Assembly (NCBI RefSeq): GCF_000327285.1 | Contig: NZ_HE998568.1 | Coordinates: 352,386-390,507 of the forward strand | Direction: 5' to 3' | Source: Holdemania massiliensis AP2 | Lineage (GTDB): Bacteria > Bacillota_I > Bacilli_A > Erysipelotrichales > Erysipelotrichaceae | DNA: 38,122 nucleotides | In this document: positions 1-15,693 of the stretch, piece by piece | Layout: the number at the start of each line of letters is the position of its first letter | Position numbering within the stretch: position 1 is the first letter of the stretch | The notes under the pieces: model-generated | Seen by the model: only the letters and a program-made list of their open reading frames with translations | What the model was told of the DNA's origin: nothing | Databases searched by the model: none | Program-made: the position numbers and the translations under genes

Positions 1-304
1 ACACATAGGTGTATGAGCTGAGGGTTCTGGTTCCCAGCTTGGTCAGCTGGGTTAACTGATTGCCGTTGTTGTCATAGCTCTTGGTGATGACGACATTGTT
101 GCACATCCACTCCTTGGTCATCCGGCCTGCCAGATCGTATTGGTAGGTGATGGACGTGTTATCCGGATAGGTGATCTTGGTGCGGTTACCGTAAGCGTCA
201 TACTGATACTGAATCATCTGGTTATCCCGGACCACCTTGGTCGTATTGCCTGCGGCATCGTAGGTGTATTGGGTTGAGCCATGATCGTCAGTCATTGTCG
301 CGAT
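1..304 (-). pseudogene. Orphan Rhs/YD-repeat core fragment, open at the left window edge
   Basis: Read on the minus strand, this stretch encodes YD repeats nearly identical to residues about 2184-2306 of the large Rhs protein (positions 3357-3720). By eye, identity is about 95% over 300 bases. It lacks exactly 60 bases, one 20-residue YD unit, relative to the intact copy. The missing unit lies between two 15-base direct repeats (3469-3483 and 3529-3543). An in-frame TAA sits at 305-307 where homology ends, and I see no ribosome binding site or promoter before it. It is therefore a headless cassette that cannot be translated as it stands. Known Rhs loci carry such orphan core-tip cassettes downstream of the immunity gene as donors for swapping the toxin tip. 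Whether a second toxin tip follows lies outside the window. Confidence 0.85.
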
Positions 305-504: not shown

Positions 505-924
505 TCAGCAGCAATTCAATATAACTTCTTCTCCTATATCAGCGTCTATTAACCCTTTTAAATTTTCACCGAATCTTTCAAGAGAACCCAATTCACTCAT
601 AACATAGAAACAGCATCGATGTCTTCGTGAATTATTATCCGGCACTTCTAAATCAACCTCAATTTGAACATGACCTGTCGTATTTATTTCCGTAATTTCC
701 ATTGAAAATGCCGGTGTATAATTACCATTTTTCTTCCCAAATTCGAAATAACAATCTGATTTTAAATATTTCGTACAATTAGAAATCTGATCACTTATTT
801 TATTCAAAATTTGTGTTTGAATGTAGCAAGTTTGATATGCTGTAACGAATTGAGATTGACACATTATCTTCAATTCCAGCAAGTCATTCTCTTGCCAGAT
901 TTTATTAATTACAATATTATCCAT
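505..924 (-). CDS. Presumed immunity protein of the Rhs toxin (unassigned family)
   Basis: This 139-residue soluble protein has no signal peptide or membrane segment, so it is expected to stay in the cytoplasm. I do not recognise its family with certainty. It is acidic and rich in beta-strand-like segments, and ends with a GEEVILN motif. Its job is inferred from position. It starts 9 bases after the toxin stop, and its TAAGGAG ribosome binding site overlaps that stop, so translation is coupled. A small cytosolic protein in this place is the standard arrangement for the cognate immunity protein of a polymorphic toxin. The gene is visibly richer in A+T than the Rhs core, as is the toxin tip, which suggests the pair arrived together. 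No other function is supported by the sequence. Confidence 0.8.
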   Translation of the reverse strand: MDNIVINKIWQENDLLELKIMCQSQFVTAYQTCYIQTQILNKISDQISNCTKYLKSDCYFEFGKKNGNYTPAFSMEITEINTTGHVQIEVDLEVPDNNSRRHRCCFYVMSELGSLERFGENLKGLIDADIGEEVILNCC

Positions 925-933
925 AGATTCTCC

Positions 934-3900
934 TTAATTCTTAAACTTAAAGTCATCAAATGCACCTGTTACCTTATTATAGTTAAAATGAATTGTTATA
1001 TTAGTACCATCCTCCATTCTAACTACATTCTCCATTTTTACCCATCCATCCGAAAATAACCATTTAGGATCTTTCATTTCCAGAGGAACCTGCCTAGCTC
1101 CCTCTAAAGGATTGGATTGGACTTGCTTCATTGCCATTTGTTCATTGAGATCATTAGGTATTACTCTTCCCGTACTTCCTTTACCTTCAACTTTAACAGG
1201 ATTGCCAACACCGATATTAGATTCTTCTTTTTCTTTCTCACCTGTTGTTCCCGACGATCCACCACCATTAACAATCGCAGATTGAGTGATGCCTAAAGCT
1301 TCACTGATTGCTGGATTCGAGGCTGCTGCGCCTTCCAAGGTTAATGTATAGCCAATAAGCTGTCCACCATTGACTGCCGCACTTCCATCCGGCTGCATTG
1401 TCATTCCTGTTGAACTGCCGCCGCTGATGTTTCCCTGAGCTCCAAGTGCTCCGATCGTGGTAACTGCTGATAGACCGATCATCTTAAGATCTTGTACGCC
1501 TTTTTCTTTATCTCCGCTCTCATATTCATAGATAGCATAGACTGTCGCTCCACCATAAGCGGCCGCTGCAGTATGTCCAAGAACTGCTGCCAATGCAGGT
1601 AAGGTTCCAAACGAAGCTGCTGTCAAATACAGCGCTGCCGCTCCACCTCCTATTATCACCAGATTTTCCACCGGATGATCCAAGAAGCTTTGAATCGTAT
1701 TCTTCGTCAACCTCGTGGCTGCATCCCAAGCTTCCCCAGCTTTTTCGCCAACCCATTGAATTCCCTGGCTCACTTTTTCCTTTTGTTCACTGCACCAGCC
1801 GCTAACTCGATTCGCTATCGATCCAATTTTATCGGTTACATCCTTAAAGTTAATGCCCTTAAAACTATTCAAGTTGACTTGTACACTTCGTCTTGCTTCT
1901 TCTTTCTTTGCATATTCCGATGTAATTTTTTTCATCGTGCTTGTCAGAACTCCATGCTGCTCTTCTATTCGCTGTTTTAATAGTTCAGCAGCTTTTTTCG
2001 CATCTTCCTGACTCTTTCGCGTTGTGTTTTTTCCAGAAGAAGTATTCTTTGAAGAACTGTTGGAATTATTCTGATATACTGTCGAATTCGAATAATTCGT
2101 GTTATTCGACGGATACTGGATCGCCTTATCATATTGCTTATAGATCGGCGGCGCTGTTCTCGCATCCGTTGGATTCATTGGATTTGATGGCTGACTCTTC
2201 GGCGTACTCTTCTTTGTATTGGAGGAACTTGGCGTGCTTTTCTTGCTTGGCGTTGTTTTTTTCGGGGTAAAGGCATTCTTTACCGTATTCACAACCTTGT
2301 TCACCGTATTGGTGATTGCTCCCCAAATACTCCACATTCCCCTTGGATCAAAGTACTTATTCGGGTTGTTTCGGCTATAGTTGTACCGGTTCTGGCTTAA
2401 CGGATCCTGCCAATCCCCACGATACCCATCCGCACTGATGAACAGTTCCGTCACGGTATCATAATACCGCGCTCTTAAGTACTGCGTTTCATCACTGTTG
2501 TGTGCTTCTGAGCGATACCCATATTCGTCACTGCTGCTGACAAACGGATTGTATTTCTTATCTCTCCTTCCATAATCGCTGTAGCTGTATGTCGACAGCA
2601 CCTGATTGGATCCGCTTAACAGCATTGTAACGCTTCCTTGACCATCGTACAAATAGAAATCGTCATTGGTGCACAATCTCTCATTGCCATACCAATACTT
2701 TGTTTTTGCACTGTCCTGCGTCTTCACCAAGACGACGGGATACTCGGCCAGCTCGTCGTTGAGATACTGAATCGTCGTCGTGTTGCCGCTGACTGACCGC
2801 GTCGTTGCTGAGCTTGCGTTCTGGTGCGTTTCTGCGGCTTCCAGCGGCGTTTGTTTCAGCTGGGCGATCAAGGTGTCGATACTGTCGGAAATCGCCTGAG
2901 GCGAGGTCACAGGCACGGTATTCGTCCGGCCGGCAGTCTGTTGGATCCGATTGCCTGCTCCGTCATACGCATACGTCGTTACCGTTCCGTCGAAGTCCTT
3001 CACTTTCACCAGCTGATTCAGCTTGTTGTACGTGTATTCCTTCACCTTGTTGTCATCCCGGCCTTCCCGAATCCGGTTGCCGTTAGCGTCATAGGCATAG
3101 GTGAAGTGATAAGTACCATCATAATAGGTCTTGATCCGGTTGAAGTCGTCATAGGTCGCACGGTAGGTGACCTGCCCTTCCGTCACTTCCGTCTTATTGC
3201 CAGTCAGTGTGATCACGGTTTCCGTTGTCGTTTTCGTTGATCCTTGCGTCTTCACCGTTTTGATCAGCTCGTCGTTTTCATTGTAGCTGTACTCTTTGAC
3301 GGTCGTTGCCCCGTTGAGGATTTCCGTCTGCTTGGCCACGCTGTTGATCGCGTTGTAAACATAGGTGTAAGAGCTGAGGGTTTTGGTTCCCAGCTTGGTC
3401 AGCTGGGTTAACTGATTCCCATTGTTGTCATAGCTCTTGGTGATGACGACATTGTTGCACATCCACTCCTTGGTCATCCGGCCCAGCGCGTCATATTCAT
3501 AATTGGAATAATGCGACGCGTTGACAGTCTTGGTCATCCGGCCTGCCAGATCGTATTGGTAGGTGATGGACGTATTATCCGGATAGGTGATCTTGGTGCG
3601 GTTGCCGTAAGCGTCATATTGATACTGGATCGTCTGATTATCCCGGACCACCTTGATTGTATTGCCTGCGGCATCATAGGTGTATTGGGTTGAGCCATGA
3701 TCGTCAGTCATTGTCGCAATCCGGTCTAAAGCGTCATACGTGAAGGCCGCGTCCGGCTTGGTCAGCACATTCTGGTTCGCGTCATAAGTATACGTCAGAA
3801 CTGTGCCGTCCTTCTGCTTTAGGGTTAACAGATTGCCGTTTTTATCGTAGGTATATTCTTCCGACTTCTTGTCTTCATCTGTCGCTTTGATCAATTGACC

Positions 3901-6900
3901 TGAGGTATTGTAGACATACAGAACCTCTGTTTGGTCATAGTAGCGGCGAATGATCTTGCCCATCTTGTTCAGCGTATAGTTCAGCTTGAATCCGCGGGCA
4001 TCCTGAACAGAAGTCATATTCCCAGCGGCGTCATAGGTATACGTAACCAAATGATTCAGCGGATCCTTTTCCTGAATCAGGTTGTAGACGGAATCATAAA
4101 CCTTTTCATAGCGCTGGCCATTGGCGTCGACCCGGGCTGTTTCATAGCCGGCGGCATTGTACTCCACGGTTGAAACATGGTTTAATGCGTCGGTGATTTT
4201 GACAAGCTGCTGATTCAGATCATAATCATAGCGCGTCGTGTTTCCGACAGGATCGGTTTCACTCAGAATCTGGTTGAACGCGTCGTAGGTCCAGGTGGTC
4301 GTCTTCGCGTTGTTGACTTTTTCAGTGAGCTTGTTGCCGGCGGCATCGTAGGTATAGACCGTTTTGATGCCGGCCTCATCGGTCATGCTGAGAATCCGGT
4401 CTTCTGGGTCATAAGTATACGTCCGCGTCTGGTTCAGCGCATTTTTCTGCTGAATGACGCGGCCGGTCTTATCATACTGCCAGCTTGTTTTGTGCCGCAG
4501 CGCATCGTAAGCCTCGGTCTTATTGCCGATCACGTCATAGACATTCTCCGCAACCAACTTGTCATCCTGCCATGTTTTCAGCAGCTGGTTGTAGGCATTA
4601 TAGGAATACTTCCAAACCGAGCCGTTGGTCATCGTTTCACTGACCTTCTGGTTTAAAGCGTTATAGGTTGCGGTTTCAATGCCGCCGTCGGGATACGTTG
4701 TTTTCTTGACATTGCCGAAAATATCGTATTCGTAGGCTGTGATTCCGCCGATCTTGGATGTTTCCTTAATGCATTGATTCAGTGCATTGTACTGCCGCTG
4801 GATCGTATTGCCCTTCGCATCCTTCGTAGCGGTCAAATTGTCATGGTCATCATAGGTGTATTCCGTCGCGTAGCCCAGCGGATCCACCGTTTTGGAAACC
4901 AGACCGGCGGGATTGTACACCGTCTGCGTGATGCCGCCTAAGCCGTCGGTTTCCTTGATCAGCCGGCCATCGGCGTCATAAGCAGTTTGCCGGATTGTTT
5001 TGTTATCCACCTTTTCCGTTACCTTTTGATTCAAGGCGTTGTAGACAGACTGGGTCGTATGACCGTTGGACGTCATCGTCAGCACGTTGCCTTCTCCATC
5101 ATAAGTCGATGTCGTGACGTTGTTGTTGCGGTCGGTCACGCTGATGACATGGCCGAAAGTGTCATAGGCATAAAGAATCGTATCCCCGTTGATGGTTTCC
5201 TTGATCAGGCGGTTTAAGGCATCATATTCCAGCGTTTTGGTATTCTGAAGGCTGTCGCTTTCCGAGATCTTATTCCCGTTTAAATCATAGGTAAACTGCG
5301 TCGTCACGCCGCGGCTGACCTGCTTGATGATCTTGCCGTCATCGTTGATCGTGTAGGTCGTGGTGCTGCCGTAAGCGTCGGTTTCGGAAGTCACCTGATC
5401 ATAAACGTCATAGGTATACGTATGATTGATTTCACCGTTAACCTTGACCTGCGTCAGCCGGTGCAGCGCATCCAGCGTGTTCTCAGTGACTAAGCCCGTC
5501 GGCTCGGTTGTCTTAATCAGCTGATCGTAGGCATCATAGACAAATGTCGTGGTTAAGCCCAGGATAGTCTGGGAGGTCAGATTGCCGAAGGTATCATAAA
5601 CATAGCTTTCAATGACTTTGCCATTGCGTGTCTTCTGTGTTAGATGCCCGTGAACATCATAGTGATAGCCGGTCTGGTTGCCCAGCGGCGTGGTCGTTAA
5701 GATTGTCCGTCCGCGGCTGTCGACGGTCATTGTCGTGCGGTTGTTCAGCGCGTCCTTCGTTTCAATTACCTGATGATTGCCATTGTAGACATAGGTCGTC
5801 GTGTGGCCGTTGGTATCGGTAGAAGTGAGGATATTGCCTTCATGATCATACGTCCAGCTGCGCGTCTTTTCCGCCTTGGTTTCACTGAGCACCCGGCCCA
5901 TCGCGTCATAGGTATAGGTTGTTTCCTGTCCCAAGGCATCCGTCATTTTTGTCTTTAAGCCTTTGGCGTAGGTATAGGTTGTCGTGTGCCCCAGCGGATC
6001 CTTGACGCTTGTCAGATGACCCATCGCGTCGTAAGTCTTTTCCGTCACCTTGGCCTGATCATTGCTCGTCAGCGTCTGCTTGACTTCATGACCCAGGGCA
6101 TCGTATTCAAACGTGGTCGTCTGACGGGTAGTTGCCTGACTGAGCCGCTGACCTTTCGCGTCATAGGTATAGGTCGTCACATTGCCTGCTTTGTCCGTAG
6201 CGGTTAAAATCCGGCCTAAGACATCGTAGGTGTTGATCGTTTCCTTTCCATCGAAATCCGTCGTTTTAATGACGTTGCCCAGCGTGTCATAGGTATAGGT
6301 TTTAATTTGCTTATGGGCATTGGTTTCTGTCGCGACACCGAACTGATTGTAGGTGTAGCTTTTTGTCAAACCGTTGGCTGTTTCCGTCACTGTCCGGCCG
6401 CGGCTGTCAACCGTGCGCGATGTGACTGCGCCGTCGGGGTAGGTGGTTTTCGTCAGATTCTGATTTTTATCATAGGTATAGGTTGTGACGTTCCCTTCCG
6501 AGTCCGTCATTTTGACAACATTGCCATAGAGATCGTATTCATAGGCGGTGATGTTTCCGTCATAGTCGCTCTCCGTCAGCTTGTTGCCGGCCGCGTCATA
6601 GATGAACGACTTCGTTCCCCCGTCCGGATTGATAATCTGAACGATTTCATTGCGGGCGTTGAGGACATGGGTGGTTGTATGATTGTCCTGATCGGTGGCG
6701 GTTAACAGATAGCCTGCCGCATTGTAGGTATAGGTAAAATAGGTTCCGTCAGGATAGGTAATCTTACTTACCCGGCCCTGATCGTTATATTCATAGCTTG
6801 TCGTCTGATTCAATGGATTGGTTTCACTGATCAGCTGCTTCAGATCGTTGTAAGCATAGGTTGTTTTATGCCCCAGGGCATCGGTGTAGCTAGTCTTGTT

Positions 6901-9900
6901 GTTGTGGGCGTCATAGGTCCAGGCTTCATTCTGACCAGCCGTATTGGACTTTGTTAACAGGTTGTTCTTGGCGTCATAGGTGCGGGTTTCCTTGAAGCCG
7001 TCGCTGCGCGTCGCAGTCAGCTGATTGCCGCGGTCATCATAGGTATAGGTCCAGCGCACGCCGTTTTCCAAGGTTTCTTCCGTTAACAGTCCTTTGACAA
7101 AGGTCTTTAAAACCTGGCGGCTGTCCGCGTATTCAACCTTGGTCGTCTGCCCATTGGCATCAAACCAGGTCGTTTCCACATTGCCTAACGCGTCCGTCGT
7201 CTTTGTGCGGCCTTCCAGATACTCCAAGGTCATGATGTTGCCCTGGCCGTCGACCTGTTTTGTGACGCGGTGCTGATCGTCATAGGTATTGGTGATGACT
7301 AACGCCTCATTCTGATTCGTCCACGAGGTCATATTGTGATCTGCATCATACGTGTATTCGATCACCGCGCCGGTCTGGTCGGTAAAGGAGATCAGATTCA
7401 GGTTGGCATCATAGCCATAGCTGACCTTATCCGTTTCTGACAGCCGGATTTCATCAACCAGATTCTCCGCATTGTAATGGAAGGTCATCGTCTTGCCGTC
7501 TTTTAAAGTGATCGTCTTCGGCAGACCTTGAGTGTAGGTAAACGTTGTTTCGCGTCCCTGCTTGTCGATGTTCTTGGTTACTAATCCCTGGGCGTTGTAA
7601 ATCCAGGTTGTATCCTGATTTTTCAGCACAAAGTGATCGGTATCCCAGCTCAGCTTCATCGTCGTTGTCAGCGTGTTGGCATAGGTGCCGTCGGCTTGCT
7701 TCGCGAAGTAATATTTCGTGCCGTCTTCCAGCATCACGGTTGCGCCCTGATCGTCGCTGGCAACCCGGGATAATCCGCTGAACGCCCAGCCCATGCCGAA
7801 GATGCTGAAGACTCCGGCGGCGCTGCTGTTGTAAGCGCGGGAGAATGTAAACGTTTCATCCAGCACGTTCATCGCGAAATCCTGACTTTCCAGGATAAAG
7901 TTGCCGGTGTTCAGGTTAATCGGCTCAAAGCCGAATTCGCACTGCACATCGCGTCCGCGCAGCGCCGCGTCGACCTGCTTCTTCTGATCTGTCGACAGGT
8001 CTTCCTCCACATAATCGACGTCTTTGTTTTTCTGCGGTTCGCGGATAAACAGAATATTTCCCTGAGTGATCAATTCATCCTGCAGGTTGTTGTCCTTCAT
8101 CAGGGTTTCTTTGGAAATCCCGTAGAAGGAAGCGATCGAGCTGACTAAGTCAAAACCTTTCACCTCATAGGTTCTAAAGTAGGTTTCCTTGACCGCGCTC
8201 TTCTGGGTTCCCTTCACCGATTGGAATTGCACGGTATACAGCTTGCCCGGCTCAAAGCTGTCAAAGAACTTCCCGGTTTGATAATTGCTGACCTTGACGC
8301 CATTGTAGCTTTGTGTTTTCTCAATTTCCGGATAGTCCGGATAACGGTAAAAGTTATCTACCGCTTCCATGGTTTCCGTAAACTTCACGGTTTCCCCGTC
8401 TTTAATCGTAACGGTTGTCTGGGCATGATACGGCGCCGTGCCGTCAAATCCGACCGCGACTAAATACGCTAAGCCTTCCTGATAGTCATATTTGACAAAC
8501 GGGCGGACATTGAACGTAAACTGATTGACGTCGGTCATCGTGACATCCGGGCTGTCGTAATATTCCGCTTCAACATACGGCGTATCCTCACCGGTGCCGG
8601 TGATGTAATAATATTCTGAAGCGTACATCTCCAGATAGCTGGATTCCGGATCCTTCAGGGTTAACAGCACGCCGTTGTTGGGCTTGTTGTTTTCCGCAAC
8701 GTCTTTAACATAGGGTGTAATATCGAGCGAATGCAGCCAAAAGCCCTCCCAGGTCCAATCGCTGGTAAAGCAGTCGTAATTGGCCGGCATGTTCAAATAA
8801 GTCGCTTTGGAAATATCATAAGTCCCCGGGATGCTGCAGGCAAGCAGCTCATTGGTCGTCCCCGGCTTGGTTTTTCCCTGAACGATATTCAGCGTTGCTT
8901 TTTTGATGTATTTGCCTTTCAAGACTTCATTCATGCGGTCATCGTTAATTTTATAAAAGCTGAAGGCGTGCGCATAACGCGGATGATTACCGATAAACAA
9001 AAACGCGTCGTCATAGTTTTTTAACACCCAGCCGTCCGCTTCCATATTCGGATTGCCCAGCGTCTTGGTCGGACGGCTTTGAGAAACACTGACGTCAGTT
9101 CCGTTGTGAGCATAGCCGAAATAATTGGGATCGATCACGACTGGATAAACCCGGTCTTCGCTCATCAGCCAGCTCTCGTCCACGCTGTAATGAACAAGAT
9201 TTTCTTCTAAGGACACGAAAACCTCGGTTTCATTGCCCGCTGCATCCTTAGCCTTCGGCGCCCGGATCAGCATGGCCAGCTGTTCGTTCTGATCGACAAC
9301 AACCAAGCCATGCTCGTCGCCCTGCCGGACTGTTCCGTTTTCAACGGTGATCTGGCTGTCAAAAGTATTCGCTGCCGGCTTTTCATACAGAACCAGTTCC
9401 TCTTCCACCCAGGCCGGCATGACCGTATAGCGCAGATTCACCTGATTTTCCATCGGATAGATCAGCTGCGCCCCCTCCACGCTCGGTTCGCCGATTTGTT
9501 TCAGCTGCGGAATTACTGTAATCCGAACATCGTCTTTTTCCAAGACAACGCCGGTTTTGGAATCCGCTGGATAATAGCTGCGGACAACATTCGCCGTATT
9601 CTGCACAAAAATACCCTGGCCCTCCTCAGAAAGCAGGTTCACTGCCGGCGTCAGCTGGGTATCAATCGGCGCAAAGCCATTCTCCGTCTTATAATTCCGA
9701 ATGACGCCCATGACCATTTTTTTCAGATTCTGGTCTTCTTTATTGGTGTAAATCACTGTTCTTTCATCCACAATTTCCGGATTCGTATAATCCTCAGGCT
9801 GAGAATCTGCCGGATTCGTATCCGTCTGTGTAAATTCCAGCGGTGCCGCGGACGCTGGTGTTTCACCGGCTGTTGGCGTCGGCACCAGCGTCGGCTGAGG

Positions 9901-10272
9901 TGTTTGTACAGGAATCTGCGTTGGTTCTGCCGAGGGTTCTGTCGAGGGGTCAGCCGTTGGCTGCGCAGTCGGCTCCTCCGTTATTTCCGGTGTTTCAGCC
10001 GGCTTGGGTTCGGCTGTTGCATCAACACTCGGCGTGGGCTGGAGTTCTTCGCCCTCTGTTGGCTCACTCCCATTTTCTGATTCTTCCGAATCTTTGTTGT
10101 TGACGGGATCATTTTCAGTAATATCAACGTTGTAGTAAGGTCCTGTCTGATTGTATTTTTCAATGATTCTGCGCTCATTGACTGCCCGGATCATATCCGT
10201 GTTCTGTATCAGCATACAGAAACTGAACAGACAGATCATAAGCTTTTTAATTCCACCGCTGAACGATTTCAT
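934..10272 (-). CDS. Secreted Rhs/WapA-like YD-repeat polymorphic toxin, 3112 aa
   Basis: This is a giant secreted toxin of the Rhs/WapA class. In order it has: a Sec signal peptide (about residues 1-30); a low-complexity Pro/Thr/Glu linker (about 75-142); a DNRLRE-like beta domain (about 385-580); a LysM-like module (about 700-750); a DUF6531-like entry segment with NLNTGNF (about 780-815); and a long array of YD repeats (about 885-2430). The Rhs core domain follows, with YLRARYYD, closing at DPRG (2642-2645). The 467-residue variable C-terminus has Gly/Ala-rich hydrophobic helices (about 2870-2920). It ends in a domain with NEQMAMKQV, DGWVKM and DDFKFK motifs, which resembles the polymorphic toxin type 35 (Ntox35) group; that assignment is from memory and unverified. 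The YD array forms a shell around the toxin in known family members. The reading frame is intact. The start lies inside the 3' end of the upstream lipoprotein gene. The tip is A+T-rich compared with the core. Confidence 0.93.
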   Translation of the reverse strand: MKSFSGGIKKLMICLFSFCMLIQNTDMIRAVNERRIIEKYNQTGPYYNVDITENDPVNNKDSEESENGSEPTEGEELQPTPSVDATAEPKPAETPEITEEPTAQPTADPSTEPSAEPTQIPVQTPQPTLVPTPTAGETPASAAPLEFTQTDTNPADSQPEDYTNPEIVDERTVIYTNKEDQNLKKMVMGVIRNYKTENGFAPIDTQLTPAVNLLSEEGQGIFVQNTANVVRSYYPADSKTGVVLEKDDVRITVIPQLKQIGEPSVEGAQLIYPMENQVNLRYTVMPAWVEEELVLYEKPAANTFDSQITVENGTVRQGDEHGLVVVDQNEQLAMLIRAPKAKDAAGNETEVFVSLEENLVHYSVDESWLMSEDRVYPVVIDPNYFGYAHNGTDVSVSQSRPTKTLGNPNMEADGWVLKNYDDAFLFIGNHPRYAHAFSFYKINDDRMNEVLKGKYIKKATLNIVQGKTKPGTTNELLACSIPGTYDISKATYLNMPANYDCFTSDWTWEGFWLHSLDITPYVKDVAENNKPNNGVLLTLKDPESSYLEMYASEYYYITGTGEDTPYVEAEYYDSPDVTMTDVNQFTFNVRPFVKYDYQEGLAYLVAVGFDGTAPYHAQTTVTIKDGETVKFTETMEAVDNFYRYPDYPEIEKTQSYNGVKVSNYQTGKFFDSFEPGKLYTVQFQSVKGTQKSAVKETYFRTYEVKGFDLVSSIASFYGISKETLMKDNNLQDELITQGNILFIREPQKNKDVDYVEEDLSTDQKKQVDAALRGRDVQCEFGFEPINLNTGNFILESQDFAMNVLDETFTFSRAYNSSAAGVFSIFGMGWAFSGLSRVASDDQGATVMLEDGTKYYFAKQADGTYANTLTTTMKLSWDTDHFVLKNQDTTWIYNAQGLVTKNIDKQGRETTFTYTQGLPKTITLKDGKTMTFHYNAENLVDEIRLSETDKVSYGYDANLNLISFTDQTGAVIEYTYDADHNMTSWTNQNEALVITNTYDDQHRVTKQVDGQGNIMTLEYLEGRTKTTDALGNVETTWFDANGQTTKVEYADSRQVLKTFVKGLLTEETLENGVRWTYTYDDRGNQLTATRSDGFKETRTYDAKNNLLTKSNTAGQNEAWTYDAHNNKTSYTDALGHKTTYAYNDLKQLISETNPLNQTTSYEYNDQGRVSKITYPDGTYFTYTYNAAGYLLTATDQDNHTTTHVLNARNEIVQIINPDGGTKSFIYDAAGNKLTESDYDGNITAYEYDLYGNVVKMTDSEGNVTTYTYDKNQNLTKTTYPDGAVTSRTVDSRGRTVTETANGLTKSYTYNQFGVATETNAHKQIKTYTYDTLGNVIKTTDFDGKETINTYDVLGRILTATDKAGNVTTYTYDAKGQRLSQATTRQTTTFEYDALGHEVKQTLTSNDQAKVTEKTYDAMGHLTSVKDPLGHTTTYTYAKGLKTKMTDALGQETTYTYDAMGRVLSETKAEKTRSWTYDHEGNILTSTDTNGHTTTYVYNGNHQVIETKDALNNRTTMTVDSRGRTILTTTPLGNQTGYHYDVHGHLTQKTRNGKVIESYVYDTFGNLTSQTILGLTTTFVYDAYDQLIKTTEPTGLVTENTLDALHRLTQVKVNGEINHTYTYDVYDQVTSETDAYGSTTTYTINDDGKIIKQVSRGVTTQFTYDLNGNKISESDSLQNTKTLEYDALNRLIKETINGDTILYAYDTFGHVISVTDRNNNVTTSTYDGEGNVLTMTSNGHTTQSVYNALNQKVTEKVDNKTIRQTAYDADGRLIKETDGLGGITQTVYNPAGLVSKTVDPLGYATEYTYDDHDNLTATKDAKGNTIQRQYNALNQCIKETSKIGGITAYEYDIFGNVKKTTYPDGGIETATYNALNQKVSETMTNGSVWKYSYNAYNQLLKTWQDDKLVAENVYDVIGNKTEAYDALRHKTSWQYDKTGRVIQQKNALNQTRTYTYDPEDRILSMTDEAGIKTVYTYDAAGNKLTEKVNNAKTTTWTYDAFNQILSETDPVGNTTRYDYDLNQQLVKITDALNHVSTVEYNAAGYETARVDANGQRYEKVYDSVYNLIQEKDPLNHLVTYTYDAAGNMTSVQDARGFKLNYTLNKMGKIIRRYYDQTEVLYVYNTSGQLIKATDEDKKSEEYTYDKNGNLLTLKQKDGTVLTYTYDANQNVLTKPDAAFTYDALDRIATMTDDHGSTQYTYDAAGNTIKVVRDNQTIQYQYDAYGNRTKITYPDNTSITYQYDLAGRMTKTVNASHYSNYEYDALGRMTKEWMCNNVVITKSYDNNGNQLTQLTKLGTKTLSSYTYVYNAINSVAKQTEILNGATTVKEYSYNENDELIKTVKTQGSTKTTTETVITLTGNKTEVTEGQVTYRATYDDFNRIKTYYDGTYHFTYAYDANGNRIREGRDDNKVKEYTYNKLNQLVKVKDFDGTVTTYAYDGAGNRIQQTAGRTNTVPVTSPQAISDSIDTLIAQLKQTPLEAAETHQNASSATTRSVSGNTTTIQYLNDELAEYPVVLVKTQDSAKTKYWYGNERLCTNDDFYLYDGQGSVTMLLSGSNQVLSTYSYSDYGRRDKKYNPFVSSSDEYGYRSEAHNSDETQYLRARYYDTVTELFISADGYRGDWQDPLSQNRYNYSRNNPNKYFDPRGMWSIWGAITNTVNKVVNTVKNAFTPKKTTPSKKSTPSSSNTKKSTPKSQPSNPMNPTDARTAPPIYKQYDKAIQYPSNNTNYSNSTVYQNNSNSSSKNTSSGKNTTRKSQEDAKKAAELLKQRIEEQHGVLTSTMKKITSEYAKKEEARRSVQVNLNSFKGINFKDVTDKIGSIANRVSGWCSEQKEKVSQGIQWVGEKAGEAWDAATRLTKNTIQSFLDHPVENLVIIGGGAAALYLTAASFGTLPALAAVLGHTAAAAYGGATVYAIYEYESGDKEKGVQDLKMIGLSAVTTIGALGAQGNISGGSSTGMTMQPDGSAAVNGGQLIGYTLTLEGAAASNPAISEALGITQSAIVNGGGSSGTTGEKEKEESNIGVGNPVKVEGKGSTGRVIPNDLNEQMAMKQVQSNPLEGARQVPLEMKDPKWLFSDGWVKMENVVRMEDGTNITIHFNYNKVTGAFDDFKFKN

Positions 10273-10657
10273 TTAATTTTTCCCCATTCTTTCCTGCTTC
10301 AGATTTTAGTTTTTCCAGTTCATCAATCGCTTTTTCTGTGGCTTGATGTTGTAAGGCCTCAGCGATCACACAGACTTGCTTTCCCATTTTTTCATAGGCC
10401 TGTGCTAAGCCTGCGACTTCCTCGTCGCTGCCGTGGTAAGTCTCCTCCGGTTCACTCCATTGCTCGCCGATTGCACTAAGCTGTGCCAGCCAGTCCGGCG
10501 ACTGCGGCTGACCATTTTCAAATAAGGCGGTCAGCTCAGCCTGGCTTTTCTGCAATGTCTGCAGATATTGCTGCTCCGCACTCATTTGCGTTTTTGACTG
10601 ACAACCAGCAAGCAGACTGAGTATCAAAATCAGAAGTAATCCTCGTTTTCCCTGCAT
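10247..10657 (-). CDS. Small lipoprotein upstream of and overlapping the Rhs toxin gene
   Basis: The 136-residue product starts with a basic, hydrophobic signal peptide and a clear lipobox (LLAGC, Cys 19), so it should be lipid-anchored on the outer face of the membrane. The mature part is acidic and helical (many Gln, Glu and Ala), with no domain I recognise. The start is set by AAAGGAG a few bases upstream. Its last 26 bases overlap the start of the Rhs gene, which points to translational coupling and joint function, perhaps anchoring, folding or release of the toxin. That role is inference only. It lies downstream of the AgrD-like gene, after a hairpin at 10687-10707. Confidence 0.85.
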   Translation of the reverse strand: MQGKRGLLLILILSLLAGCQSKTQMSAEQQYLQTLQKSQAELTALFENGQPQSPDWLAQLSAIGEQWSEPEETYHGSDEEVAGLAQAYEKMGKQVCVIAEALQHQATEKAIDELEKLKSEAGKNGEKLNEIVQRWN

Positions 10658-10686
10658 ATCGGTCTCCTTTTGGGCATAATAAAAGC

Positions 10687-10707
10687 GCCTATGAGAAAAT
10701 CATAGGC
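10687..10707 (-). terminator. Hairpin between agrD and the lipoprotein gene: weak terminator or attenuator
   Basis: A perfect 8-bp stem (GCCTATGA/TCATAGGC) with a five-base loop is followed, on the minus strand, by GCTTTTATT. It could end a short agrD transcript while letting a fraction read on into the lipoprotein and toxin genes. No convincing promoter was found between it and the lipoprotein start. Confidence 0.5.
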
Positions 10708-10816
10708 AGAAAGAGAAATGAATTGTTCTGACCTTCAGTGAATGAGAGCGGACTTTTGCGCATTTGCACCGATGATCAATTCCCTGTTCTTTCCCCTGTT
10801 GTTGAAAATTCCCTGA

Positions 10817-10924
10817 TTAGTCTTCTTCCGGCTGATACCAGCCCCATTGTGAAATTGTCAGCTTGCTGATGGCTGCCATTGCTAAAACGAGCATCGCCGC
10901 AGTTTTCCAGAAACGCTGTCTCAT
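10817..10924 (-). CDS. agrD: AgrD-like cyclic autoinducer peptide precursor, 35 aa, with Ser in place of Cys
   Basis: The 35-residue peptide has a basic amphipathic N-terminus (residues 1-21), a short aromatic core (SQWGWY, residues 25-30) and an acidic tail beginning QPEED. This is the layout of AgrD/cyclic lactone autoinducer precursors, which AgrB cuts and cyclises. The start is chosen at 10924 because AAAGGGGAG lies 7 bases upstream; the same frame stays open further up but lacks a ribosome binding site. The residue that normally forms the thiolactone (Cys) is Ser 25, so the predicted pheromone is a true lactone, as in the Ser-containing variants known from Staphylococcus intermedius and the Fsr system of Enterococcus. 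The exact cut sites cannot be read from the sequence. It sits 145 bases downstream of agrB under its own promoter. Confidence 0.85.
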   Translation of the reverse strand: MRQRFWKTAAMLVLAMAAISKLTISQWGWYQPEED

Positions 10925-10958
10925 GCTTTTCTCCCCTTTCTTTCCATTTGATAATTTT

Positions 10959-10986
10959 ATTATAGAAAATTTTACGGAAATGTCTT
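10959..10986 (-). promoter_or_regulatory. Strong sigma-A-type promoter of agrD (and probably the toxin operon)
   Basis: On the minus strand, -35 AAGACA (10981-10986) and a perfect -10 TATAAT (10959-10964) are 16 bases apart, inside an A+T-rich stretch. The weak -35 beside an operator-like repeat fits a promoter that needs an activator. Transcription would begin about 10951, giving a short leader before the agrD start at 10924. Confidence 0.7.
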
Positions 10987-10990
10987 TAGT

Positions 10991-11025
10991 TTGGGAACCA
11001 ATAGGCAGTTTTTGGGAGCGAATAG
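10991..11025 (-). promoter_or_regulatory. Tandem direct repeats, probable LytTR/AgrA operator
   Basis: Two 14-base direct repeats, TTGGGAACCAATAG (10991-11004) and TTGGGAGCGAATAG (11012-11025) as read on the plus strand, match at 12 of 14 positions. They start exactly 21 bases apart, two helical turns. The nearer one ends 4 bases from the agrD -35 box. LytTR response regulators such as AgrA bind direct repeats with this period next to -35. I infer that the AgrA homologue at 12894-13595 binds here. Confidence 0.7.
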
Positions 11026-11069
11026 ACATATTTCGACAAATTTAAGGCTTAGCAGAAAAAAAGACAGTT

Positions 11070-11627
11070 TCACTGCACTGTCTTCTGAGCCAAAGCTAAA
11101 GATATGGCGCTGGCAGTTAGGGAGCAGGCAATAATCCGCCCCATTCCCTGATTGATTGCCAGCAGTTCAATCACTGAGAAAATACCGCAGATACTGGTTA
11201 ATATCCGACTTAACCGTCGGGCTCGCTGACGATCCTGCTCGGTTTTGCGGCGTTTGTAGCGCATGTCAGGAGCCCATTTCCAAATGATGCCCAGGGATAA
11301 GAGATCAAGCAGGACATAAATTCCAGGATTAGGGATGAACTGTGTGAGGGCAATGCATCCGAAACAAACGCTGTGGGTCACAAGCAGACAATGGGAAAAG
11401 CGGTGCAGATGGATTCCACCGGTAAAGGAACGGACTGCCATCAGACTGAGCATAAAAACCAGCATTTCCTGAACACAGTTGAAGACCAAGGCAATACCGG
11501 TCATGCACAGGATCAGAATTCCTTGAATTAATAAATTCTCGATGCCAAAGCGCAGATCATTCTCATTCACGGGTTCGTTCAGCTGTCCGTTGAGCCAGCG
11601 GCCCAGCTTTAAAGAAAAATTACGCAT
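11070..11627 (-). CDS. agrB: AgrB-family membrane peptidase that processes the AgrD pheromone
   Basis: This 185-residue multi-pass membrane protein has the AgrB signature. A Gly-Gly-Ile-His segment puts His 73 seven residues before Cys 80, the same spacing as the His/Cys catalytic pair of AgrB. It is expected to cut the C-terminal tail of AgrD and form the ring while handing the peptide outward. Hydrophobic segments lie near residues 31-50, 53-66, 78-95, 100-115 and 145-180. The start at 11627 is supported by AAGGAGG at 11634-11640, inside the end of the kinase gene. The two genes overlap by 8 bases. A longer open frame upstream of this ATG is only kinase sequence read in another frame. Confidence 0.92.
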   Translation of the reverse strand: MRNFSLKLGRWLNGQLNEPVNENDLRFGIENLLIQGILILCMTGIALVFNCVQEMLVFMLSLMAVRSFTGGIHLHRFSHCLLVTHSVCFGCIALTQFIPNPGIYVLLDLLSLGIIWKWAPDMRYKRRKTEQDRQRARRLSRILTSICGIFSVIELLAINQGMGRIIACSLTASAISLALAQKTVQ

Positions 11628-12897
11628 GTTTTTCCTCCTTCGGCAGTAAAATCCGGACTTCAAAACGGTCTGAAGCCAAGTGAAAATCAAGCTCGCCTTC
11701 AGCCTGCTTCACAATCGTGCGGATACTCTCAATTCCATAACCATGTTCTTCCCAATCTGACTTTGAACTTCGTTTTAGATTGATGCGTAGATTCGGCTTA
11801 ACCGAATTGATCAACGTCAGATAAATTGTCGTTTCATCTTCTTTAAGATAGAGTTTAATTTCTTTCTGCTGTGACAGCTTTGCGGCTTCCACAGCATTGC
11901 TCAGCAGATTGGAAATTAAAATACAGGTATCGACTTCCTTTAACGACCATTGTACGCGGCCGGTTTCCAGATGAAACTGAAGATGGGGCTCACTCTCTAT
12001 CGTTCGATTTAAGAGACTGTCAATGATTGGATCTCCGGTATGTTCCTTCCTTGAGATATCCTCTACCGTTTTCATAGTTGATCGAATGTATTCAAGAGCT
12101 TCCAGGCTGCGTTCCTGTGATAAATATAATTCAAGCAGCCCCAGCAAATGTTTCAGATCATGACGCTGCTTACGGTACTTCTCCTGATTTTCCAAGGTCT
12201 CCGCAAGCCAAACTGCTTTCAGCGTATTGCAATTATGTTCAATCTCAAGCCGTTTCTTACTTTCCCGCATTTGACGATATTGCAAAAACACCCAATTCAT
12301 CAGCACAAAGAATCCAAATAAAGCTGCGCTGAGCGCGGCCGAGAGAATCCGAATCCGCCGGTCATTGAAGGTGCAGCAGATCAGATAATTAAAGAACACG
12401 CAGAGAAACAATAAAAGACAGCTAAACCGAAACATCCAGCTTAAATTTTCATATCGGAGCAATTCCGGTTTCTTCTTCATCAGGACAATCGGCGTCAAAA
12501 TCGCCAGTTTATTAAAATAACCACCCAGCGTTCGCAGCCAGTTCTCCTGCATCAAGACTTCGATCGGGATTTTGGCACCCAGCGTTAAAACCTGAAACGA
12601 AATCACTGAGAGGATTCCTTCTGCGATGTAAAACAACAAAACTAAAATTCCCAGGTTCATGGTTTTCCCTGTGAAGACTAAGCGAATCATGATCATCATA
12701 TTCAAAAACATCAGAAGAACTAGTAAAGTTGGATCAGCCATCCAAAATTCCATCGAATATTCAACAGCGGCAAATCCCAGCAGGGACAAAAGCAGGACTG
12801 GAAGGGAAACCCGCAGGGCAAAAAATTTCTGCACTAATAGGGTGACACTGAGCATTTCAAGCAGGCAAAAACTGAATTCGATCACAAATGCATTCAT
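11620..12897 (-). CDS. agrC: AgrC-like sensor histidine kinase
   Basis: The 425-residue protein has an N-terminal sensor of about six or seven membrane segments (residues 1-205), a short coiled linker, and a cytoplasmic kinase of the AgrC/GHKL type. The phospho-acceptor is His 246 in RHDLKH. The N-box is at residues 330-338 (NLLSNAVEA) and the G-box at 385-392 (HGYGIESI). It should sense the processed AgrD peptide and phosphorylate the response regulator encoded just upstream. Its ATG overlaps the TGA of the regulator gene (ATGA, 12894-12897), a tight two-component pair. There are no frame breaks or missing key residues. Confidence 0.93.
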   Translation of the reverse strand: MNAFVIEFSFCLLEMLSVTLLVQKFFALRVSLPVLLLSLLGFAAVEYSMEFWMADPTLLVLLMFLNMMIMIRLVFTGKTMNLGILVLLFYIAEGILSVISFQVLTLGAKIPIEVLMQENWLRTLGGYFNKLAILTPIVLMKKKPELLRYENLSWMFRFSCLLLFLCVFFNYLICCTFNDRRIRILSAALSAALFGFFVLMNWVFLQYRQMRESKKRLEIEHNCNTLKAVWLAETLENQEKYRKQRHDLKHLLGLLELYLSQERSLEALEYIRSTMKTVEDISRKEHTGDPIIDSLLNRTIESEPHLQFHLETGRVQWSLKEVDTCILISNLLSNAVEAAKLSQQKEIKLYLKEDETTIYLTLINSVKPNLRINLKRSSKSDWEEHGYGIESIRTIVKQAEGELDFHLASDRFEVRILLPKEEKHA

Positions 12898-13595
12898 ACC
12901 ATCACCTTATAATCTGAAAAGCGCCGAAGAACCTCTGCCTTCTGATACTTGCTGATCATTAAAGGCTGACTCAGTCCGCGGATAAACAAGGTATTGGCTT
13001 TGATTTTTTCCACATTCATTAGGTTCACGACTTCCGATCGATTAATCTGAACCAAATATTCACGCATTGCCAGCACACAGACAGCATCGTTTAAAACACG
13101 TCCGCGCAATTCATATTTTATCCCGCCCTGCAATGTCAGTGTTACCTTGCGGTTAAAACAGCTGAGCATTAAAATCTGATCGCGGCGAATTGAGATTTTG
13201 CCTTGTGTCGTTTCCACTGTCACCTGACGATAGGCAATTTCCTCGTTGATTTTAATGATCATTCCCGCCAGCTGTTCCTGGAGTTTTGACTTGACAAGAA
13301 AGCCGATCACATGAAAACCGAACGCTTCCGCCATATAGTGTTCCTCGGCTGTAACATAAACAATCAAGGGGGAAACTGGCTGTTCCCGCAAAGCTTTCGC
13401 CACAGAAAAACCATTAATATTCGGCATTTCAATGTCCAAGAATAAAACATCAGAAGCAATTTGACCGAGTGTGGCGATCAATTTCTGCGGATCATTATAC
13501 GTCTTAATTTCACCAAATAGCTGAGTCTTTTCCAGTTCGCCTGACATCATTTCAAGAAATTCCAGATCATCATCTACAATTGCTGCTTTTATCAT
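12894..13595 (-). CDS. agrA: AgrA-like response regulator, receiver plus LytTR DNA-binding domain
   Basis: The 233-residue regulator has a receiver domain (about 1-120) with acidic residues Asp 8-10 and phospho-acceptor Asp 54 in FLDIEMP. A LytTR domain (about 135-232) includes a typical segment with EYLVQINRSEVVN. The start at 13595 follows AAGGGAGG by 8 bases; an ATG 33 bases upstream has no such site. It is the first gene of agrA-agrC-agrB, an order unlike the staphylococcal agrBDCA. Its likely target is the direct repeat pair before agrD. No other tandem site of this sequence was noticed in the intergenic regions of the window. Confidence 0.93.
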   Translation of the reverse strand: MIKAAIVDDDLEFLEMMSGELEKTQLFGEIKTYNDPQKLIATLGQIASDVLFLDIEMPNINGFSVAKALREQPVSPLIVYVTAEEHYMAEAFGFHVIGFLVKSKLQEQLAGMIIKINEEIAYRQVTVETTQGKISIRRDQILMLSCFNRKVTLTLQGGIKYELRGRVLNDAVCVLAMREYLVQINRSEVVNLMNVEKIKANTLFIRGLSQPLMISKYQKAEVLRRFSDYKVMV

Positions 13596-13660
13596 GATTA
13601 ACGCCTCCCTTAGGTCGTCATACTCCATCCTTATTTATAACACAAACGCTGAGCGACTAC

Positions 13661-13703
13661 AAAAAAAGCCGGGCTGTCAAAATGTGAAATCCAACAGCCC
13701 AGC
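13661..13703 (-). terminator. Intrinsic terminator between the EEP lipoprotein gene and agrA
   Basis: On the minus strand, GCTGGGCTGT and ACAGCCCGGC form a 10-bp stem (one G-T pair) followed by seven T. It lies 14 bases after the stop of the upstream gene and insulates the agr operon from it. Confidence 0.88.
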
Positions 13704-13716
13704 CTAAGCCTTCATT

Positions 13717-15693
13717 CTATTCTTCCACTGTGACTAACAGAGATGACTCCACGCGCAGTTCACTGCCGCTGCACAATCCAATATAGGCCTTGCCCGGCTT
13801 CACTGCGGTGACCTGACCTTGTTCATCAACAACTGCGACCCGTTCATCCGAGGAAAACCAATGCAGTGTGACATCGCTTGCCGCCTCCGGCAATCTCTCA
13901 CCCGTCACCGTTGTCTTTTCTCCGGCTTTCAAAGCTGCAGCTTCCGTCTTCAGGAAAATGTTTTCTGTCGGCACCGCTTCCCGAATCTGAACGTCATCCA
14001 GCCACAATGTCCCTTCAGCACCGCTCAGCCTGAAGCTGAGATCCAATGAGTCCGCAGAATAGGCTGTGACAAAGTTTAAACTGTAAACCGCCCACTCCTC
14101 GCTCATGCACAGATTATCGTTGAGTGTAACCTGATGCGTTGAAATGGATTCGCCGTTAGCCGTCTTCTGCGTCATTTCAATCGTGAAGTCAGTGCTGCTC
14201 AGCTGCTGCGCTCTGTGATCGAAAACAAGCTGATATGTTGTATTCGGCTTCACCGCGGCAGAGGTGCTCAGAACTCCATCAATGCCTGATCTGATTCCTG
14301 ATTGGGTGAGCATCAGGGACGAACTGCCCGCTGTTTTTGCAGCAGTGTCTGCACTTAAAACAAATGCAGCCGATCCGCTGTGTTCCTCCGCCTGCACTAC
14401 CGTCCAGTTCCAGCCTTCCGGCTGATTCCCATTCCAAACTTCAAAACTGCCCTGCGGCAAACGATTGGCAGAATCAATCTGCGGTGACAATGGATCCCCA
14501 AAAATCTGAATTTCAGTGATTTCATAACCTTGGTTCGCGGCCTTTTTCCCCGACAGCTCCAAGCGGACAAACTTGACTGGCTGGTTATTCACCGCAATGG
14601 CATCGCTGTCTTTCACATCCTGAATTTCAGCAAGAGTTTGATAGCTTTCGCCGTCCAGAGAGCCGGAAACTAGATACTGTTTGGCTTTCACTGTATCCCA
14701 CAGCACATGGATCTGATCAACTGCGTACACCCGATCCAGTTCAATCGTAATGAATTGCTGATCCGCAGCATCGGACACCCACGGTGTTTTCGTGTCATAG
14801 TCCACAAGCAAATACGGAGAGATTTCTTCATTCAAAGAAGAAACGATGACATTTTGCCCCAGCGCCCGATTGTCAGAATTGGCAAGGCCTTCCACTTCAC
14901 CCAGCAATTCAAATTCCGCATAGAACAGATCATGATCAGACAGATCACTTTCAACCCGCTGAATATCTGTGATCCGCATATTCTTTGTACATAAGACATT
15001 GTCTATCGTAAAAACATTCATGGACGGATCATCCGCTTCCCGATAGGTATCATACCACATGGACTTATATCCATTCGCTACGTTGAAGTTATCCAGAAAC
15101 ATCGAATATTCATATTCATGCTGATCGGTATTGAAATCTCCGGTAATCACTTTGTACTCCATCGGATCAGCATTGACCCGCTGAATGACCTGTGCAATCT
15201 GACGGCGGCGCAGATCAAGATTTTCCCAGCTTAGATGCGTATTGTATAACGCGATCTGGACTCCGTCTTTCTCGATGACCACCCGTTCCAACGTCTTTGT
15301 TGCCCGACTGCCGGTACTTTCTAACGGAATGGAACTAACCTGCAGCAGCTCGTGCTGACTCACGATGCCAATTCCAAAGGCCCCATCCGCAAAATCCCGA
15401 CCTTTGGCAAAATGAACGTAAGGAACGTCATCATTCACAAAAGCCTGAGCCAGATCCTGTGAATTCCGGTTGTTCTGCACATCCACTTCCTGAATTCCAA
15501 CAGCGTCAAGACGGTGCTTGGCCAGCACAGCCGCCATGGCCTGCGGATCCGGATGTTTTTGGGAAGCGATGTTCCATGTTCCAATCCGCAGCGTTACAGG
15601 ACCGCTGCCCGAAGATGAATCCGGTACCGGGCTGCAGCCTGTGATCATGCCAAGGACAGCAAAGCTGATTAGTATTTTTTTTAACTTATTCAT
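13717..15693 (-). CDS. Surface lipoprotein: EEP-family phosphodiesterase with F5/8 and carbohydrate-binding-like domains
   Basis: The 658-residue lipoprotein starts at 15693 behind GGAGGAATGT, and has a signal peptide with a lipobox (GMITGC). Residues about 30-265 form an endonuclease/exonuclease/phosphatase fold with the expected motifs: WNIA, IQEVD, YNTHLSW, TGDFN and a final SDHD. Next come an F5/8 (discoidin)-like domain (about 275-410), a carbohydrate-binding-like jelly roll (about 420-575) and a C-terminal Big2-like module (about 580-655). Metal-dependent cleavage of phosphodiesters (DNA, RNA, phospholipid or phosphosugar) at the cell surface is expected, but the substrate cannot be told. 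It has its own promoter and terminator, and is divergent from a LysR regulator. A 12-codon longer start exists without a ribosome binding site. Confidence 0.88.
   Translation of the reverse strand: MNKLKKILISFAVLGMITGCSPVPDSSSGSGPVTLRIGTWNIASQKHPDPQAMAAVLAKHRLDAVGIQEVDVQNNRNSQDLAQAFVNDDVPYVHFAKGRDFADGAFGIGIVSQHELLQVSSIPLESTGSRATKTLERVVIEKDGVQIALYNTHLSWENLDLRRRQIAQVIQRVNADPMEYKVITGDFNTDQHEYEYSMFLDNFNVANGYKSMWYDTYREADDPSMNVFTIDNVLCTKNMRITDIQRVESDLSDHDLFYAEFELLGEVEGLANSDNRALGQNVIVSSLNEEISPYLLVDYDTKTPWVSDAADQQFITIELDRVYAVDQIHVLWDTVKAKQYLVSGSLDGESYQTLAEIQDVKDSDAIAVNNQPVKFVRLELSGKKAANQGYEITEIQIFGDPLSPQIDSANRLPQGSFEVWNGNQPEGWNWTVVQAEEHSGSAAFVLSADTAAKTAGSSSLMLTQSGIRSGIDGVLSTSAAVKPNTTYQLVFDHRAQQLSSTDFTIEMTQKTANGESISTHQVTLNDNLCMSEEWAVYSLNFVTAYSADSLDLSFRLSGAEGTLWLDDVQIREAVPTENIFLKTEAAALKAGEKTTVTGERLPEAASDVTLHWFSSDERVAVVDEQGQVTAVKPGKAYIGLCSGSELRVESSLLVTVEE

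Follow-up and report, generated by a model that had tools for sequence, protein, structure and literature searches.

Repeats at the agrD promoter of Holdemania as a predicted AgrA operator whose word is not the staphylococcal one, and a remote tandem array of the same site

The window analysed here is a stretch of 38,122 nucleotides from Holdemania massiliensis AP2. An agr system lies on its minus strand, where an AgrB protease, an AgrC kinase, an AgrA regulator with a LytTR domain and an AgrD precursor are found together. Read along this strand, the order is agrA, agrC, agrB, a hairpin, the repeat pair with the promoter, agrD and a second hairpin. The features are as follows.

10686-10708, minus strand: terminator-like hairpin behind agrD, with a weak T run
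10817-10924, minus strand: agrD, 35 aa, MRQRFWKTAAMLVLAMAAISKLTISQWGWYQPEED, with homologous peptides in Holdemania sp. and in G046
10959-10964, minus strand: -10 of the agrD promoter, TATAAT, behind a 16-nt spacer
10981-10986, minus strand: -35 of the agrD promoter, AAGACA, weak; the repeat is 4 nt away and the CTATTGG core 11 nt away
10991-11004: promoter-proximal half-site, TTGGGAACCAATAG on the plus strand and CTATTGGTTCCCAA toward agrD (minus strand), with the core CTATTGG at 10998-11004
11012-11025: distal half-site, TTGGGAGCGAATAG on the plus strand and CTATTCGCTCCCAA toward agrD (minus strand), with the core CTATTCG at 11019-11025
11059-11086, minus strand: terminator-like hairpin behind agrB, separating agrD from agrACB
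11070-11627, minus strand: agrB (PF04647 AgrB, E 9e-26, obtained with the longer ORF 11070-11690)
11620-12897, minus strand: agrC-like sensor kinase of the GHKL type (PF14501, E 2e-18)
12894-13595, minus strand: agrA, receiver plus LytTR response regulator (PF00072, PF04397), the presumed binder of the repeats

The agrD promoter was the best of the seven promoter-like matches in 10600-13800 and agreed with the consensus at 10 of 12 positions. The family search of the window's own AgrD gave no match; the AgrD-like peptide of G046, a genome of another genus, matched TIGR04223 AgrD. The ring of the signal probably starts at the serine of SQWGW, and a serine lactone is presumed.

The sequence-only reading had described two 14-base repeats with 12 matches, which start exactly two helical turns apart and end 4 nt from a weak -35 with a perfect -10. 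The positions and the identity (12 of 14) were as described, the repeat starts were exactly 21 nt apart, and AAGACA-N16-TATAAT was found on the minus strand. The full 21-nt unit was in fact repeated, 10990-11010 and 11011-11031 being 76% similar. To see how often chance yields a pair of at least 12/14, the 145 nt between agrB and agrD were shuffled 20,000 times with the dinucleotide composition preserved. Such a pair appeared in 0.16% of the shuffles at a spacing of 21, in 0.5% at 20-22, and in 6% at any spacing from 14 to 59. Judged by shuffling, the repeat pair alone is thus suggestive and not proof.

LytTR sites consist of repeats of 9-11 nt with 11-13 nt between them and are placed directly upstream of the -35 (PMC4847170, PMC6193735); in Streptococcus mutans they lie 4-11 nt upstream of it (PMC6193735), and what they have in common is the geometry, not the word (PMC4847170). 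The direct repeats at agrD, about two helical turns apart and, in the window's own genome and in Holdemania sp. Marseille-P2844 (G002) alike, 4 nt upstream of the -35 (11 nt counted from the core), fit this published geometry, in line with the earlier proposal that LytTR regulators bind this kind of site. The sites of HdrR/BrsR of S. mutans, YpdB, VirR, PlnC and FsrA have a geometry like that in Holdemania, and their words are regulator-specific.

The regulator encoded beside the repeats carries a LytTR domain that barely exceeded the Pfam cut-off (PF04397, 22.7 vs 22.6 bits). Sixteen LytTR matches were obtained in the genome, among which that of AgrA was the weakest (25.5 bits, compared with 37-92). 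Receiver domains took up the whole result of a fold search with full-length AgrA, so the LytTR domain was submitted alone, and its model (pLDDT 89) matched 3d6w, ComE and S. aureus AgrA with Z of 11-13.5, the next unrelated row having a Z of 3.8. In the LytTR family the motif FhRhHRS takes the form FFRCHNS in S. aureus AgrA, of which R198, N201 and S202 touch the DNA (PMC4227749). At this position the window's AgrA reads LVQINRS and the AgrA of G046 reads FFLINRS; forms such as FFRCHRS occur in several of the genome's other LytTR proteins. A divergent word and a divergent recognition motif of AgrA would be coherent with each other, and both agree with the new AgrA specificity that had been suggested, in so far as the word appears non-classical. 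The broad LytTR consensus contains GTT, and no conserved GTT core was seen by eye in the 12-site alignment. The GGGA in the repeat presumably resembles the FsrA word, a likeness that was not used as evidence.

Lack of conservation upstream of agrD in relatives had been named as the observation that would speak against the site. Among the 195 family genomes sampled, a related AgrB was found only in the window's own genome (G000), Holdemania sp. Marseille-P2844 of the same genus, and G046, and the site was present at agrD in all three. In Holdemania sp. 33 of the 35 bases of the site were kept, compared with 40 of 90 columns for the 60 nt upstream and 30 of 40 for the -35/-10 stretch; in G046 the core and the register were retained. 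The prediction of conservation thus passed in both relatives.

The locus of G046 has the order agrA-agrC-agrB, with a short precursor peptide, a radical-SAM/SPASM maturase and an ABC exporter arranged divergently, followed by agrD. Its AgrA is 29% identical to that of the window. Two candidate promoters were found there: CTATTCAAACCAAGAATTTGCCTATTCG, 11 nt, TTGCGT, 18 nt and TATGAT at agrD, and CTATTCGAACCAAAATAATGACTATTCG, 11 nt, TTGTTT, 17 nt and TATGAT at the peptide operon. Both agr-linked promoters carry the pair CTATTCA/G-N14-CTATTCG, and the register, 21 nt and then 11 nt to the -35, is the same at both as at agrD of the window. When the core pair was sought with at most one mismatch over 318,638 positions of the loci scanned, it was obtained only at the two G046 promoters and at the agrD and array sites of Holdemania; the chance expectation for this number of positions was 0.19. 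Read toward agrD, the cross-genus core is CTATTSG-NN-CC, as judged from three genomes in two genera only. It refines the word TTGGGA-N3-AATAG of the earlier reading, whose AATAG side is the better conserved across the genera and whose TTGGGA side did not hold up as well.

A functionless chance repeat, to which the 6% of shuffles with an equal pair at free spacing would lend some room, is hardly credible in view of the conservation of the site, the 13 strong profile matches from two genomes and the recurrence of the core in a second genus; conservation together with genome-wide recurrence makes a chance origin untenable.

The distribution of the site was examined by pattern and profile searches. 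In the profile scan of five genomes, seven sites were found in the window's genome (agrD and six in a remote array) and six in Holdemania sp. (agrD and five in an array). All 13 matches had E <= 2.4e-11, and the next best had E 0.09. The two kinds of search agreed on exactly two loci in each genome, and the spacing in all the other copies was also 21 nt, with one exception at 20. A genome scan had been proposed as the way to the regulon. An ordinary regulon did not emerge, as neither search gave sites beyond agrD and the array in the window's own genome; what the scan revealed instead was a single promoter and a remote tandem array. Among the 195 family genomes, the Holdemania word occurred only in the two genomes with this AgrA, plus one poor match in G084 (two mismatches) that looks like chance. 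Among 395 class-wide genomes, taken without Holdemania sp. and G046, the refined pair was obtained in the window's own genome only. When 315 genomes of the order were scanned with a looser pair pattern, isolated single matches with other spacers turned up, including two that came from different species of a single further genus. A CGAATAG-N14-CGAATAG pair with a near-identical spacer was seen in G197 and G199 (L130, L131), two species that belong to a different family within the order, and this spacer is unlike that of Holdemania. The pair had no match in viral contigs, and a reading of the remote array as viral DNA was rejected.

This distribution bears on whether AgrA or some other regulator binds the repeats. 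Because the genome has 16 LytTR matches, another LytTR protein could in principle use the site, and the word is not classical; an unrelated factor would be a further candidate. However, in the family sample the site co-occurs only with this agr, and it stands at agr-linked promoters in three genomes, so that linkage and co-occurrence point to AgrA and a different binder appears improbable. Taking the anatomy, conservation, genome-wide distribution and fold as established, we consider, at a probability of roughly 0.8, that the repeat pair is the operator through which AgrA of this same locus acts on the agrD promoter, and that its word is not the staphylococcal one.

If so, AgrC would phosphorylate AgrA on sensing the AgrD-derived peptide, as in the family, and AgrA~P would bind both half-sites (CTATTSG-NN-CC, 21 nt apart on the same face of the DNA). 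The bound AgrA~P would be expected to help RNA polymerase at the weak -35, so that signal raises signal. Since only agrD carries the site and a hairpin separates it from agrACB, the feedback would be limited to the supply of the signal, that is, to the agrD precursor alone, with agrACB lacking the site.

Each remote array is located on the 3' side of degV between converging genes, and its orientation with respect to degV is the same in both genomes.

C1:1016005-1016532 (L050:5990-6532), window's own genome: array of six copies with a 97-bp period, the half-sites of one copy being spaced at 20 nt
C14:23083-23545 (L067:9087-9548), Holdemania sp. Marseille-P2844: array of five copies with a 106-bp period

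The gene facing degV across the array is cpaB-like in the former and rnfB in the latter, and the sequences downstream of the arrays differ, being the 3' end of the cpaB-like gene and rnfB, respectively. Between array and degV the window's own genome has a gap of 996 N (L050:6599-7594), which is unread, so that a gene might lie there; Holdemania sp. has no such gap. The array copies were homogenised within each species, and the periods differ. Across the two species the array sites were 76% alike without gaps. The DNA between the sites was 0.63 alike, within the range of shuffled sequences (mean 0.55, maximum 0.65). Two other readings of the arrays were rejected. A repeat protein was dismissed for want of a conserved ORF, as periods of 97 and 106 shift the frame at every unit, and a structured or Rfam RNA was dismissed since neither array gave a fold signal (z -0.8 to +0.8) and the array of the window's own genome had no match in Rfam.

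Of the 11 array copies of the two species, 10 have TTGACA, or in one case CTGACA, in the register seen at agrD, and these are better -35s than agrD's own. The arrays might thus be promoter arrays, in which TTGACA and the AgrA site start an AgrA-dependent non-coding or antisense RNA from a non-canonical -10. The register has been kept despite divergence of the remaining unit sequence, and AgrA-dependent promoters tolerate poor spacing (PMC4227749). Nevertheless, no -10 elements were seen in the array by inspection, no promoter-like match was found in either array where about one was expected, there was no sign of a structured RNA, and the downstream sequence differs between the species. We therefore regard promoter arrays as unlikely. 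Multiple genuine-looking operators are present with neither a promoter nor a gene, the 996-N gap in the window's own genome being unread, and we favour reading the array as DNA without a promoter that is predicted to bind AgrA.

Such DNA could still be neutral, a tandem satellite into which an AgrA site was captured before slippage expanded it, and quorum sensing would then be unaffected. Tandem arrays expand easily, and homogenisation within species at periods of 97 and 106 is what a satellite would give. Further evidence on this point came from G001, which is close to Holdemania sp. Marseille-P2844 (94% in the flanking Exo_endo_phos protein, vs 68-69% for the window's genome). It has no agr at the orthologous place, where a LysR gene follows the Exo_endo_phos gene instead. 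Its rnfB-degV gap holds an unclosed stretch of 459 N (L105:5690-6270), and the edges of this stretch, GGAATGAATAGG and TTTTGGGAATGAATAG, are variants of the word. These edges are read as those of an array that outlived its agr system; unless such an array is a mere relic, it would not depend strictly on the AgrA of today. G001 has a different agr of its own (AgrA about 30%), and where the DNA next to its agrA and agrB was inspected, 21-nt repeats were absent; G003 has neither this agr nor the array. Relative to G001, degV, a tRNA and the array appear inverted with respect to the rnf operon in the window's genome, the array-degV orientation being kept. Against a neutral satellite stands the observation that the site words and the -35 register are recognisable in two species, whereas the DNA between the sites is no more alike than shuffles allow.

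The most likely role of the array, if it has any, would be that of a decoy that binds AgrA~P and thereby raises or sharpens the switching threshold. Extra sites can titrate a regulator, as found in theory and in two-component tests (PMC9725139, PMC7686491). On this reading the array would be a dedicated chromosomal decoy, its full AgrA operators without -10 being filled before the single agrD operator; a graded feedback loop would thereby become a switch with a threshold, and it is through array copy number that this set point would evolve. In an equilibrium estimate, adding six equal sites increased the amount of AgrA~P required to reach half occupancy by 1.1- to 4.8-fold, with the upper values only where binding is tight; with a Kd of about 3 dimers per cell or weaker the shift was less than 2-fold, which suits a neutral satellite. 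In the published test with the two-component regulator CusR, 96-192 extra sites gave bimodality (PMC9725139), so that a strong decoy effect here would need few AgrA molecules. For that reason the decoy is proposed tentatively, level with the neutral satellite, itself doubtful, and ahead of a promoter array.

Compared with S. aureus, the Holdemania system differs in several respects. Its word is unlike that of the AgrA sites at P2/P3, its site precedes agrD only and not the whole operon, its gene order is A-C-B with a separate D, an RNAIII-type divergent target was not found in Holdemania, and the AgrA motif is LVQINRS instead of FFRCHNS. Compared with LytTR sites generally, it has the CTATTSG-NN-CC word and, in addition, complete operators in a tandem array that shows no recognisable promoters. 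We place the predicted operator in the LytTR class as a new member that has a word of its own and is set apart by the promoterless array. Among the papers searched, none named both Holdemania and agrD. Published decoys are scattered genomic sites or engineered plasmids, whereas Holdemania has a compact natural array of five to six copies as a candidate quorum decoy. The predicted agr regulator word lies outside the staphylococcal ones, is common to two genera of one family, and is tied to the signal gene agrD, the only promoter found under the operator in Holdemania. Were the array a decoy, it would amount to a natural device for setting a quorum threshold, one whose units can be counted, and copy number could be tested against switching density.

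Since the second genus has the operator at a radical-SAM peptide operon, the word may serve to predict quorum-controlled products in the family. This RiPP-like operon of G046 (L128:632-3890) is divergent from agrACB, and its precursor ends in GIAVCCCG; the maturase is nearest to PapB-type ranthipeptide maturases, with a score below the model cut-off.

In the window, no other promoter was predicted in the interval from agrD to a lipoprotein gene, so read-through of the weak agrD hairpin could possibly extend quorum control to the lipoprotein and to the Rhs protein encoded after it. The latter is a secreted Rhs/YD-repeat protein of 3112 aa (934-10272, minus strand), and behind its gene lie a possible immunity ORF (505-924, minus strand) and a further Rhs fragment (2-295, minus strand). 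The order agrD, lipoprotein, Rhs is the same in Holdemania sp. (L049).
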